Part shown: in pieces, positions 5 to 47,827 of the stretch | Layout: every line of letters starts with the position of its first letter | Numbering within the stretch: the first letter of the stretch is position 1 | From: an uncultured Oscillospiraceae bacterium | Lineage (GTDB): Bacteria; Bacillota; Clostridia; Oscillospirales; Oscillospiraceae | Length of the DNA: 53,318 bases | Direction: 5' to 3' | Assembly (NCBI GenBank): GCA_947630755.1 | Contig: CANRIU010000011.1 | Location: forward strand, 1 to 53,318 | Translations under genes and position numbers: made by a program | The notes under the pieces: model-generated | Seen by the model: the letters and a program-made list of their open reading frames with translations, nothing else | The model's database searches: none | What the model was told of the DNA's origin: nothing

Positions 5-101
5 GTATGAGACGACTTTTTGGCGGCTTTGCCGCCAAAAAGAGCGACGCGTAAGCGGCGCTTCTCCAATAAAAAGTCTACTTTTTATTGGAGAATAGTA
101 T
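5..101 (-). repeat. Three-hairpin structured repeat, copy A
   Basis: Read on the minus strand the element opens with ATACTA. It continues with a perfect 15-bp stem and 4-nt loop (62-95), a small 19-nt hairpin with TTAC loop (43-61) and a perfect 12-bp stem with 3-nt loop (16-42). It closes with CGTCTCATAC. The same layout, with the same lengths, recurs on the plus strand at 47257-47353. Stem bases differ between copies but remain paired. The element lies downstream of the pectate lyase terminator and may continue beyond the window edge. No protein-coding signal was seen. Family unknown to me; a mobile hairpin repeat or a structured RNA are both possible. Confidence 0.8.
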
Positions 102-182: not shown

Positions 183-2219
183 TTATTTATAGAGCTTGTT
201 TGACTCATCCACGTCGCCTGTTATGGCGTCGCGCCAGGCGCTGGGGGCGGTGCGGATGGAGGTATTCGAGCGGTAGACCCCGCGGGGAGCGGAGAGGGGA
301 TTTGCGCGGAAGATGAAGTTTTGCTGCTCGTTATCTATGGAGACGCAGCCCGTCAGGCGTATGGCGCCGGGGTTGAAGTTGTCGGAGAAGCCCGCCATGG
401 AGTTTTTGAAGGCTGTGCAGCTCTCCACCACATGGCCCACGGGCATACCCTCGCCGCCGAGCTTGAAGCCGTTGCCGCCGCCTCCGCCGCGGATGACGTG
501 GGAGGGGTCCTCCGGGTCCACCCAGATGCCGTTTAAGTAGGCCACGCAGTTGCGCAGCGTCACGGGGGCGTTGGGGCCCTTCTCCACCTTGTTGTAGAGG
601 TCAAAGCCGTCGTCCACGTTGCCGTAGGCCACGCAGTCCTCAAAGACGTTCCCCGGTCCCACGCCCAGCTTCGGCGCGAAGCCGTCGGCGTTCATGTTGC
701 GAATGTCCCTGTTGCCGTAGGAGACGCAGTTTTTCACGAGGTTGTAGCAGGGCCAGGCAAACTGGAAGCCCTCCGGCGTGCCGTTGCCAAGTAAAAGGCC
801 AGTCTCGTCGCAGTGGTGGAAGGAGCACTTCTCCACGGTGTTGAAGCTGCCGCTGAGCTCCGAGCGCTTTCCGGTAAATTCAAGGCCGTATATGCGCCAG
901 AAGTTCGCGGTGGTCTTAAGGCAGGCGTTGACGAACCGGACGGCGGCGCCCTTCGCAGGCATTATGGTCTTGACGCCCTCAAGGGCTCCGGAGTGCTCCG
1001 GCCCGAGAAGGAGGCTGCGGGTGTAGTCGCCCTCGAGGAGGTATATGGTGCCGCCCTGGGAGAGGCGGCGGAGGGCCTCCTCGAGGCTCGTGGGCTCCTC
1101 GGCGGTGCCGGGGGCGTCGTCAAGCCCATCGGGGGAGGCGTAGATCTGGTCGGTCCTGAAGGAGCGGGGGGTGTAGGTTATGGTGAAGCTCTCCGTGATG
1201 CTGCCGGAGGGGAAGTCGTAGACGCACTCCAGCTCGTTTTTCCCGGGGAGGAGCGTCAGCGCCATATTCGCCGGGTGGCGGTCGAGAAGCTCCACCGTGC
1301 CAAGGGGCTCCTCCCCGCGGCTGACATACACAAAGCCGCTCTTGTTGCCGTGGAGGGTGAGTATGTAGCTCTCATCCGTGCTCACGGTGCCGGAGCGCAG
1401 GAAGAGGGTGGGCTTTACGTTGTGGTTCTCCGGTCTCCACAGCGGCGGCAGGACATCTGGCAGAGTGCAGGGGGTGACGGTAAGGTCGATATTCTCAAAG
1501 CGGACCTCGGCGTTGCGGGAGGTGAAGAAGCCCACATACATGCTGCCCTTTTTGAGCTGTGTGAGGAGGTTCACGCCGCAGCTCTCCGGGTAGTACCTCT
1601 CCCCCATCGCCCCGTCGGCGCCCATGGTCCTGACGAAAAAGCCCCGGTCGTCCCGCCCGAGCTCCATCCTGACGCTCTCTCCCCCGGTGACCACGGGCTT
1701 TGCGCCCTCGAGCTTCCTCTCGTCAAGCTTCACGCCCACAAGGTCGTGGATGTTGGCCACGCCCCGGCGGCAGACGGCGCTGGGGGTGTTCTCATCCCTG
1801 TTTCCCGCCAGAACGCCGACAAAGACCATGTTTGAGGCGGCGGGGAGCTCCTGAAAGCTGGGGTCGAAGGGCTCACGCCGGGCAATACCAAGACTGTCCC
1901 GGGCCATTATGCCAAAGCCGCACTGCTGGGGCGTGTCCTGTGTGCCAAGCCGACCATAATTCAGTACCCGGACATCGGCGCTGAGAGTGAAGTGCTCCCG
2001 GTCCGGGTCAAGCTCCACATACCTGAAAACTATTCCGTCGTGGCCCCCGGCGATCTTGCCGCCCCGGCTCTCCAGCGTGACCGAGCCGTCCGGCTCCGGG
2101 CGGGCCTCGTTGAGGCCGACCTTGTCGGCGTACTCAGGGAGCTTTACCGTGGAGGTGAGGTTTAAGTCCGTGGACTGTCCGAATACCCTGGTCTGCCAGA
2201 GGTGAATCGTATCTGACAT
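183..2219 (-). CDS. PL9-like pectate lyase (right-handed beta-helix)
   Basis: Predicted pectate or polygalacturonate lyase of 678 residues. The C-terminal part (about 358-678) is a repetitive parallel beta-helix. Its calcium and catalytic residues match those known from Dickeya Pel9A (D209, D233, D234, D237, K273): D512 in ADGFAPKLG, D536 and D537 and D540 in NVDDGFDLYNK, and K586 in NGFKLGG. The 24-residue step from the first to the second aspartate is preserved exactly. Residues 1-250 look like a concanavalin-type beta-sandwich and 265-350 like an Ig-type linker; both are inferred. No signal peptide or membrane segment is visible, so the enzyme may act inside the cell on imported oligogalacturonides. 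It starts at ATG behind an AGGAGG site and is monocistronic. Substrate specificity is inferred from the family. Confidence 0.82.
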   Translation of the reverse strand: MSDTIHLWQTRVFGQSTDLNLTSTVKLPEYADKVGLNEARPEPDGSVTLESRGGKIAGGHDGIVFRYVELDPDREHFTLSADVRVLNYGRLGTQDTPQQCGFGIMARDSLGIARREPFDPSFQELPAASNMVFVGVLAGNRDENTPSAVCRRGVANIHDLVGVKLDERKLEGAKPVVTGGESVRMELGRDDRGFFVRTMGADGAMGERYYPESCGVNLLTQLKKGSMYVGFFTSRNAEVRFENIDLTVTPCTLPDVLPPLWRPENHNVKPTLFLRSGTVSTDESYILTLHGNKSGFVYVSRGEEPLGTVELLDRHPANMALTLLPGKNELECVYDFPSGSITESFTITYTPRSFRTDQIYASPDGLDDAPGTAEEPTSLEEALRRLSQGGTIYLLEGDYTRSLLLGPEHSGALEGVKTIMPAKGAAVRFVNACLKTTANFWRIYGLEFTGKRSELSGSFNTVEKCSFHHCDETGLLLGNGTPEGFQFAWPCYNLVKNCVSYGNRDIRNMNADGFAPKLGVGPGNVFEDCVAYGNVDDGFDLYNKVEKGPNAPVTLRNCVAYLNGIWVDPEDPSHVIRGGGGGNGFKLGGEGMPVGHVVESCTAFKNSMAGFSDNFNPGAIRLTGCVSIDNEQQNFIFRANPLSAPRGVYRSNTSIRTAPSAWRDAITGDVDESNKLYK

Positions 2220-46465: not shown

Positions 46466-46840
46466 TCATTCCTCCTTTTTATCCGTGTCTACTAAATCAA
46501 TGAGCCCATGGAGCTCCTCCCGCTTAAAGCCCAGGGCCTCCATGGACGAGAGAAATTCCCTGACGCTCCTCCGGGCAAGCTCCCGGCGGACGCTGTCGAT
46601 AATGCCCCGGTCCTCCGTGACATACCTCCCCGAGGTGCGAATGGCGTACACAAGCCCCTCTCTCTCCAGCTCCGACAGCGCCCGCTGGAACGTGTTCGGG
46701 TTCACCCCGGCGGACACTGCCAGCTCCCGCACCGCCGGGAGCCTCTCCCCCGGTCCAAGCTCCCCGGAGGCGATGGACCGCTTCAGCTTCTCGACTATCT
46801 GTCCGTAAATCGGCCCACCGCTGTCAAAATTCCACTCCAT
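46466..46840 (-). CDS. GntR-family regulator, YtrA type
   Basis: Short GntR regulator of 124 residues. The winged helix (about 8-75: PIYGQIVEKLKRSIASGEL and VNPNTFQRALSELEREG) is followed by only about 50 residues, as in the YtrA subfamily, which lacks a large effector domain. It is the first gene of the operon with the ABC ATPase and permease. A 19-bp-arm palindrome overlaps its promoter, so it very likely represses its own operon. AGAAGGAGGTG is the ribosome site. Confidence 0.92.
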   Translation of the reverse strand: MEWNFDSGGPIYGQIVEKLKRSIASGELGPGERLPAVRELAVSAGVNPNTFQRALSELEREGLVYAIRTSGRYVTEDRGIIDSVRRELARRSVREFLSSMEALGFKREELHGLIDLVDTDKKEE

Positions 46841-46883: not shown

Positions 46884-46925
46884 AACTGTGTTATTGTATT
46901 AACCGCTTAATACAATAACACAGTT
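46884..46925. promoter_or_regulatory. Palindromic operator for the GntR regulator
   Basis: Perfect 19-bp arms, AACTGTGTTATTGTATTAA at 46884-46902 and its complement at 46907-46925, around CCGC. The site covers the -10 region of the operon promoter. YtrA-type regulators are known to use such long palindromes. Confidence 0.85.
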
Positions 46926-47049: not shown

Positions 47050-47256
47050 TATTTTCGGAAAAATTCCTTGAAGCTTTTTCACCATGGTAAACGCCCCGAT
47101 GACAGCGGTCATGCCCCTGTTTACACCCCGGACAAAAGGAAATTGTCAGGCGGGTAGTTCAACTTGGTCGACGATTTCATACCCTGATTCAAGGACACGA
47201 GAAAACTCTATTTTGCGTATATGGGTTGAAAATGGAACAAATGACGCCGCCATTTT

Positions 47257-47415
47257 ATACTATTCCCAGATAAAAATATCAATTTTTATCTGGGAAGGCC
47301 GTGCTACGCACAGCCCATTTAAGCGCTGGAAGCGCTTAAATGACGTCTCATACAAAACCTGACGCGCCTTCGGCGCTATAAAAAGTGCAAAGCACTTTTT
47401 AACAGGTTTTAGTAT
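47257..47415 (+). repeat. Three-hairpin structured repeat, copy B, with 3' junction
   Basis: ATACTA (47257-47262) is followed by a perfect 15-bp stem with ATCA loop (47263-47296), a 19-nt hairpin with TAC loop (47297-47315) and a perfect 12-bp stem with GGA loop (47316-47342). ACGTCTCATAC follows. These match copy A (5-101) in every length. Copy B continues into an 8-bp stem (47354-47361/47403-47410) enclosing hairpins GCGCC/GGCGC and AAAAAGTGC/GCACTTTTT, and ends in TAGTAT, the complement of its first six bases. Its right end overlaps the last codons of the 2H-phosphoesterase gene. Confidence 0.8.
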
Positions 47416-47827
47416 TACAGCATATTGGATGCAGATCCACGCCCGGCTTATACAGCAGCGTTGTATGAGGATACCAACTGTCCGTTTGTGTCCATTGGTT
47501 TAGGGATTTGTCATACGCTGCCGCAATGCGCCTGTGTACTTCTTCCAATAATCCTGCTCTTTCCGGAGATGCGACGATAATTGGCGCACTATCTAAAGTT
47601 CCTTCTAAAACCTCAATCTTTTTGTACTCCACGGTAAAAGGCGAAAGCCCCACAAATAGATGCTTACAGAATTGCATAAATTCCGTCTCATTATCTCCAA
47701 TGTAAGTGGCAAGCGTAATATGACCATGCAACGGATTTGAAGGTGTAAAATCAGAAAATGCATTTCTTTGTATCGCCGCAAGCGTTCCTGTAGCGAGTTC
47801 ATCAAGTTTTGCGATAACACACAGCAT
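47399..47827 (-). CDS. 2'-5' RNA ligase-like 2H phosphoesterase, 3' end replaced by a repeat
   Basis: Protein of 142 residues with the two HxT motifs of the 2H phosphoesterase family: GHITLA near 35 and PHTTLLY near 120. The family acts on 2',3'-cyclic or 2'-5' nucleotide ends. The last codons (NTKTC) and the stop lie in the right end of repeat copy B, so the reading frame probably ends earlier than its homologues. The gene is clearly richer in A and T than its neighbours, a sign of transfer. GAGG lies ten bases before the ATG. Activity is uncertain given the clipped end, though both catalytic motifs remain. Confidence 0.7.
   Translation of the reverse strand: MLCVIAKLDELATGTLAAIQRNAFSDFTPSNPLHGHITLATYIGDNETEFMQFCKHLFVGLSPFTVEYKKIEVLEGTLDSAPIIVASPERAGLLEEVHRRIAAAYDKSLNQWTQTDSWYPHTTLLYKPGVDLHPICCNTKTC

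Follow-up and report, generated by a model that had tools for sequence, protein, structure and literature searches.

Two 97-nt stretches in a 53,318-nt DNA window (the whole stretch analysed here, from an uncultured Oscillospiraceae bacterium) pose the question of why hairpins that differ in sequence should keep the same geometry. An initial annotation, made from the letters alone, placed them at positions 5-101 on the minus strand (copy A) and 47257-47353 on the plus strand (copy B), and took their covarying stems as a sign of selection on structure, as in a regulatory RNA or a hairpin DNA substrate such as REP or IS200-type ends. Both copies were present at these coordinates and on these strands with the ends described for them, and the window contains two matches to the pattern ATACTATT-N60-90-GTCTCATAC, for which 100 shuffles give an expectation of 0.00. 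The three hairpins proposed form in each copy, with folding z-scores of -9.0 (copy A) and -8.9 (copy B) and no equally stable fold among 200 shuffles; the opposite strands also fold (z = -7.3 and -9.2, respectively). The compensating changes were likewise found as described. Between copies A and B, counted on ten distinct copies, 4 of 15 pairs in stem 1 and 5 of 12 pairs in the last stem (stem 3) are altered on both sides, and the middle hairpin varies while retaining TAC in its loop.

The 97 nt proved to be only the left part of a longer element, which measures 156-157 bp in one subfamily (B) and 166 bp in another (A) and continues beyond the linker, via a branched fourth hairpin, to AGTA. 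The linker sequence CGTCTCATAC occurs at 25 sites in the bacterium's own genome, as compared with 8 for the reversed pattern. Nineteen of these sites lie within the element, with ATACTATT at the 97-nt spacing each time, and one further site belongs to a copy truncated by a contig end, of which the right half remains. The genome thus contains 19 copies, 18 of them complete, plus degenerate ones. Subfamily B accounts for 16 of the 18 complete copies and subfamily A for the other two, copy A being a third member of the latter. TACT/AGTA termini are present in all ten distinct complete copies and are common to both subfamilies, although the inverted repeat is short, the ends of copy B matching at 8 of 12 positions.

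Copy B is a complete 157-bp element of subfamily B (47258-47414, plus strand) that reads TACTA...TAGTA and is flanked by TTA on the left (47255-47257) and on the right (47415-47417). Its hairpins 1, 2 and 3 occupy 47263-47296, 47297-47315 and 47316-47342, and the linker CGTCTCATAC lies at 47344-47353 and contains the letters TCA-TAC, possibly a relic of the end of an inner element. The branched hairpin 4 (47355-47409), whose coordinates were transferred from the identical layout of another copy (L002), has a stem that pairs 47355-47361 with 47403-47409 and encloses inner hairpins at 47364-47376 and 47379-47401. Copy A, on the minus strand, is the left part of a subfamily A element cut by the contig start (1-100), with hairpin 1 (15 bp, 4-nt loop) at 62-95, hairpin 2 at 43-61, hairpin 3 (12 bp, 3-nt loop) at 16-42, the linker CGTCTCATAC at 5-14 and the left flanking repeat, TAA on the minus strand, at 101-103. 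Its right half is probably the one found on contig C41, since the two pieces belong to the same subfamily, share overlapping end letters and have TAA outside both.

All 18 complete copies are bordered by an identical TNA trinucleotide on both flanks, and all four middle bases were observed (TAA, 13 copies; TGA, 2; TCA, 2; TTA, 1). When left and right flanks were re-paired at random, a mean of 9.9 matched and 18 was reached in none of 10,000 trials. Short derivatives sharing these ends, each with the same TNA on its two flanks, were also found (L058, TGA; L087, TTA; L140, TCA; L138, TTA). Without its duplications the element spans 156-166 bp, too short for a transposase gene. Because it is short, has inverted termini, is flanked by target duplications and is dispersed in many copies, its anatomy is that of a miniature inverted-repeat transposable element (MITE). 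One degenerate copy (L042, G000:C54:2536-2749) contains a hairpin 3 stretch that resembles the 3′ part of a tRNA; in L091, ARAGORN called no tRNA gene.

A candidate for the mobilising enzyme emerged from the termini. A second MITE family, present in two relatives (G013 and G018), has ends and a duplication of the same type, with paired TNA+TACT ends approximately 165 bp apart among the matches listed in the three genomes searched. The terminal pattern TNATACTAWTMYCHRATWAAA was found in 24 of 34 genomes of the genus, and its reversed-pattern control scored 0 in all 34. End variants at contig edges pointed to a locus in G017 (L174) at which such ends enclose a transposase encoded in two overlapping frames, giving an insertion sequence (IS) with the boundaries TTA-TACT...AGTA-TTA. 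The first frame encodes helix-turn-helix domains and scores 60 bits against the NCBIfam IS630 model, below the cut-off of 100; the second matches that model at 7e-40 and 137 bits (cut-off 100) and Pfam DDE_3 at 1.6e-22. A second full-length copy of the IS lies in G022 (L196), with flanks TGA/TGA. Of 25 bases compared, the transposase-upstream end of the G017 IS shares 23 with the left and 20 with the right end of subfamily A; the downstream end of the IS shares 24 of 25 with the second MITE family. Agreement was lower for the left end of subfamily B (only 16 of 25 with the G017 IS) and for the L196 ends against subfamily A (16-17 of 25). From these likenesses, the mover is likely to be an IS630-family (DDE_3) insertion sequence.

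Transposase relatives were detected in 6 of the 34 genus genomes. The bacterium's own genome, which is 89% complete, yielded no match to the protein and none to PF13358, and no IS630 transposase relative was found in G018, the genome with nine matches to the covariance model described below. The source IS would thus be missing from, or unassembled in, the genome that carries the MITE. An IS4/IS5-type mover was considered and rejected: PF01609 matched once in the own genome, not at all in G018 and four times in G013, and TACT ends do not frame the own-genome locus, L169. The DDE_Tnp_1 transposase at L169 lies inside an apparent terminator palindrome, and from the look of its ends we take it to be IS1182-like.

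These observations bear directly on the hairpin DNA substrates suggested by the initial annotation. REP/RAYT and IS200/IS605 elements also carry hairpins at the ends of mobile DNA, and a substrate of an HUH (Y1) transposase would account for the hairpin architecture, though for that only. The MITE described here has inverted termini, a 3-bp duplication around every one of the 18 complete copies and a left end that matches a DDE-type IS630-family element. To our knowledge, neither IS200/IS605 nor REP/RAYT elements generate target duplications, and IS200/IS605 also lacks short inverted termini. The presence of target duplications in particular disfavours such ends, which we regard as scarcely credible here. 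What stood of the original proposal is a dispersed family with compensated stems; what found no support is its suggestion of REP or IS200-type ends. We conclude that the element is a non-autonomous DNA transposon of 156-166 bp, most likely moved by an IS630-family DDE transposase supplied in trans, and assign this interpretation a probability of about 0.88.

We then asked whether the TNA duplication is a property of the IS itself. A contig database contained 222 stretches encoding a relative of the transposase, and the best 80 of these, mostly from Oscillospiraceae, Clostridiales and Ruminococcus, were retained. Fourteen had too little flank, 21 lacked a TACT...AGTA pair within the limits used and 45 had one; since the ends were sought by these letters, the letters are not themselves a result. 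TNA was present on both sides in 41 of the 45 copies and was identical in 32. The 13 copies without an identical 3-mer comprise nine with TNA of differing middle base and four with another flank. Among second-family copies, including those of G040-G042, the two flanking TNA trinucleotides differ at the middle base in 4 of 15. The duplication also extends beyond this clade, as five of six plasmid copies annotated as IS630 (from Acidithiobacillus, Sinorhizobium (2), Rhizobium, Polaromonas and Thermus, hand-picked from 40 of 879 records) have TAC ends with the same TNA flanks, the sixth being ambiguous.

An empty site was available for a related element. At L295, a 166-bp MITE with TACT ends (1597-1762, both TNA copies included) lies just upstream of an IS630-family transposase gene; it splits a TATAAT-like box. 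When its flanks were joined and compared with two homologous ISs (L285 and L287), no gap appeared at the joint. L287 reads TAA once and L285 reads TAG, and each of the two alignments has 1-3 gaps some bases to the left of the joint. This comparison is between homologous ISs at 73-79% identity as opposed to an orthologous locus, and among the loci compared such a homologue was found for only 1 of 38 joined sites. For copy B, no empty site was found in 34 genus genomes.

In the available text of the ISY100 report, in vitro transposition produces TA duplications and TA targets are called exclusive for the superfamily (PMC2170065). The 2-bp TA duplication taken as the mark of Tc1/mariner-IS630 elements was not what we observed: the repeat is a 3-bp TNA in 18 of 18 elements, in 32 of 45 ISs and at one homologous empty site. 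One could suppose that the element makes a canonical TA duplication within a longer preferred target, so that the empty site would read TNATATNA; TA does follow TNA at each end, as would be needed, and IS630-family elements are described as duplicating TA in the part of that report available to us. The repeats are direct and non-palindromic (TCA/TCA, TGA/TGA), and the homologous empty site lacks the 5-nt gap at the joint that the TA model requires. We therefore regard a hidden TA duplication as very improbable. Our searches of the open literature found no report of TNA duplication for IS630, nor any of miniature inverted-repeat elements in Oscillospiraceae; ISfinder and subscription papers lay outside these searches, so the TNA feature may be known to specialists.

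How widely the folded element is distributed was determined with a covariance model built from the ten distinct complete copies, the approach by which the initial annotation had proposed to find further members. Additional copies with many further compensated stem changes were recovered in the own genome and in relatives. The model gave 42 matches in the own genome, a figure in which palindromes matched again on the opposite strand are counted too. Six of 40 genomes had matches, the own genome among them, and G018 had nine. On reading the matches, G018 and G013 contained true relatives, the G030 match being left out of this reading. Matches in G005, G020 and G013:C165 (L127-L130) were rejected, as by eye they look like other hairpin arrays; these loci have several near-perfect hairpins, by eye without TACT ends, and appear to represent another repeat family of the genus.

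Across 197 genomes of the order, five matched, again including the own genome. A genome of another genus in the same family (G103) has two clear copies, whose sequence is largely different and whose hairpin order is the same; their linker reads CGTCTCATGC, and they are flanked by TTA/TTA and TGA/TGA. A third match there is partial. A member of another family (G084) shows partial likeness with GCGTTTCATACGA, and the match in G044 was set aside, having only a hairpin-1-like part in common. Hairpins 1-2-3, the linker CGTCTCAT(A/G)(C/T) and the branched hairpin 4 are thus kept across two sister species and another genus. A narrow pattern combining linker and hairpin 4, which recovered only four of the own sites, was found in 2 of the 197 genomes, the own genome and G103. 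The motif pair of the element gave 0 matches in viral contigs; one viral locus with an end of the second MITE family was read as a chance match within an open frame.

Pairing across copies was measured in two alignments. In a plain alignment of the ten distinct complete copies, double-sided changes affect 16 of 61 pairs, and covariation scores 0.200 as compared with 0.086 after shuffling, neither figure being matched in 500 shuffles. Further pair types did not exceed the shuffled level in this alignment (19 versus 19.1; 307 of 500 shuffles as high). An alignment of 22 distinct copies, taken from 21 hand-picked sources with E values up to 1e-10 and fitted to the covariance model, so that its counts lean towards structure, gave 40 of 61 pairs changing on both sides, 94.2% of cells paired and a score of 0.394, versus 0.141 after shuffling and no more than 0.082 when partners were slid. 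This alignment, whose fitting could itself create such a bias, has 20 G-U types as compared with 10 A-C types; the excess leans weakly towards a plus-strand RNA. Apart from truncated ones, the aligned copies all keep one order of modules, and the linker and a CGCGC...GCGC hairpin are conserved across genera.

The double-sided changes, the covariation scores, the G-U excess and the retention of linker and architecture in a second genus would all fit a dispersed structured regulatory RNA or mRNA-processing module whose fold is under selection and for which mobility is the means of spread. Against this, the two strands fold about equally well, loops are found in inverted forms, the 18 copies are oriented both ways relative to neighbouring frames and, in the unfitted ten-copy alignment, further pair types stay at the shuffled level. 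The Rfam results also count against it, and they bear out the initial annotation, which had recognised no named family: no family reached its cut-off in the window, and lax limits at four loci gave three weak matches (L005, L324), the best over the element scoring 20.6 bits of the 63 needed. An RNA identity is accordingly unlikely in our judgement.

Matched changes need not come from selection on pairing. Template switching between the arms of a palindrome can yield matched changes in both arms, and two loops are present both as one sequence and as its exact reverse complement in different copies within one genome (GTGCAAAGCAC/GTGCTTTGCAC, and ATATCAAT/ATTGATAT in L012), as fits arm copying at the DNA level. 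On balance, we favour the view that the matched stem changes arose largely in this way, one palindrome arm being copied from the other, although no other part of our interpretation is as uncertain. Arm copying does not explain the conservation of the linker and one inner hairpin between genera, and the folded strand may have a function.

Frames of at least 90 aa that reach 60 bp past both sides of the element were seen for 0 of 18 copies; as a frame test over the element cannot detect an interrupted gene, the flanks were joined after removing the element. Nine of 18 joints then fell in a stop-to-stop frame of at least 100 aa, versus 907 of 1080 control positions at the same loci. The intergenic siting anticipated by the initial annotation is thus borne out only in part, such a frame being absent at nine of the 18 joints as compared with 16% of controls. 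Insertions avoid open frames, and some may interrupt genes. Orientations relative to neighbouring frames, compared irrespective of gene identity, were mixed among the 18 copies. Two copies (L004 and L025) coincide with a frame's stop codon, and their TGA or TAA duplication places a stop on either side of the element.

Several features border the window copies. A 142-aa frame (47399-47827, minus strand) runs into copy B, whose right end supplies the stop codon; the product of this frame matched nothing in Pfam or NCBIfam. With copy B removed, a 177-aa stop-to-stop frame spans the joint, so this may be a gene cut short. No terminator-like site was found inside copy B, and promoter-like matches overlapping its right end were at background (1 versus 1.1 expected). 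A self-complementary stretch (46884-46925) lies upstream of a GntR-type regulator (46466-46840, minus strand), perhaps as its operator, and recurs near the same GntR-type gene match in nine other genus genomes. Beside copy B, 109 bp (47109-47217) are 94% identical to a contig end in G023 and are perhaps another mobile piece. Beside copy A, a 23-bp inverted repeat (131-180) past the stop of a pectate-lyase-like gene (183-2219, minus strand) resembles a terminator of that gene.

As for how the MITE would move, an IS630-family DDE transposase acting in trans most likely recognises its ends, which begin TACT like those of the IS. It would excise the element and insert it at TNA sites, a 3-nt stagger giving the TNA duplication. 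Mobilisation in trans and cut-and-paste chemistry are what we infer from the ends, the duplications, the copy number, the likeness of subfamily A to the IS ends, the short derivatives and the empty site of a related element, all read from sequence. The body appears to resemble two folded-back IS ends (hairpins 1 and 4) joined by hairpins 2-3 and the linker, and in subfamily A a separate folded-back arm follows each IS-like end. The linker letters TCA-TAC would fit a past insertion of an inner element into a TCA target. Because both A ends resemble the upstream end of the IS and the linker has this look of target plus end, the arrangement hints that two minimal palindromic elements were combined.

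A broader extension of the IS630 reading is possible, though doubtful: a wide IS630 subgroup, in Clostridia and beyond, would insert with 3-bp TNA duplications, implying another strand-transfer stagger within the Tc1/mariner superfamily, and one MITE lineage would keep the four-hairpin fold and the unpaired CGTCTCAT(A/G)(C/T) linker from one genus to another because the folded single strand, whether DNA or RNA, has a function of its own, such as that of a transposition substrate or a read-through silencer.

The closest known system is RUP, an approximately 107-bp pneumococcal repeat for which IS630-Spn1 is the proposed mover in the available text of two reports (PMC2229807, PMC3049150). As described there, RUP, like the MITE characterised here, is repeated between genes, forms hairpins and has IS630-family-like ends. 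Likened by description as opposed to sequence, RUP targets contain a TA dinucleotide, whereas our element duplicates TNA, and its four-hairpin body and conserved linker are unlike RUP as far as that text goes. BOX of Streptococcus is closest in modularity; in the part of PMC3049150 available to us it is a modular family of small repeats with terminal inverted repeats, target site duplications and strong folds, with another proposed mover (ISSpn2) and a variable number of modules in contrast to the constant order here. Among full insertion sequences, the probable mover shares DDE_3 and a match to the NCBIfam IS630 model with IS630/ISY100 of the Tc1/mariner superfamily; ISY100 duplicates TA, again according to the accessible text of PMC2170065, whereas identical TNA flanks 32 of the 45 IS copies here. 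The element is accordingly best described as an IS630-type MITE that combines a TNA duplication with a body of four hairpins kept in two genera. It is the 3-bp TNA duplication in place of the reported TA, together with the elaborate fold kept across genera, that makes it unusual.

With these results, a hitherto anonymous repeat becomes a transposon system that can be tested, in an uncultured Oscillospiraceae bacterium and its kin. They also serve as a caution that perfect covariation among repeats can stem from palindromic DNA and not just from selection on RNA. Should orthologous empty sites bear out the TNA duplication, the TA rule for IS630/Tc1/mariner elements would no longer hold generally.
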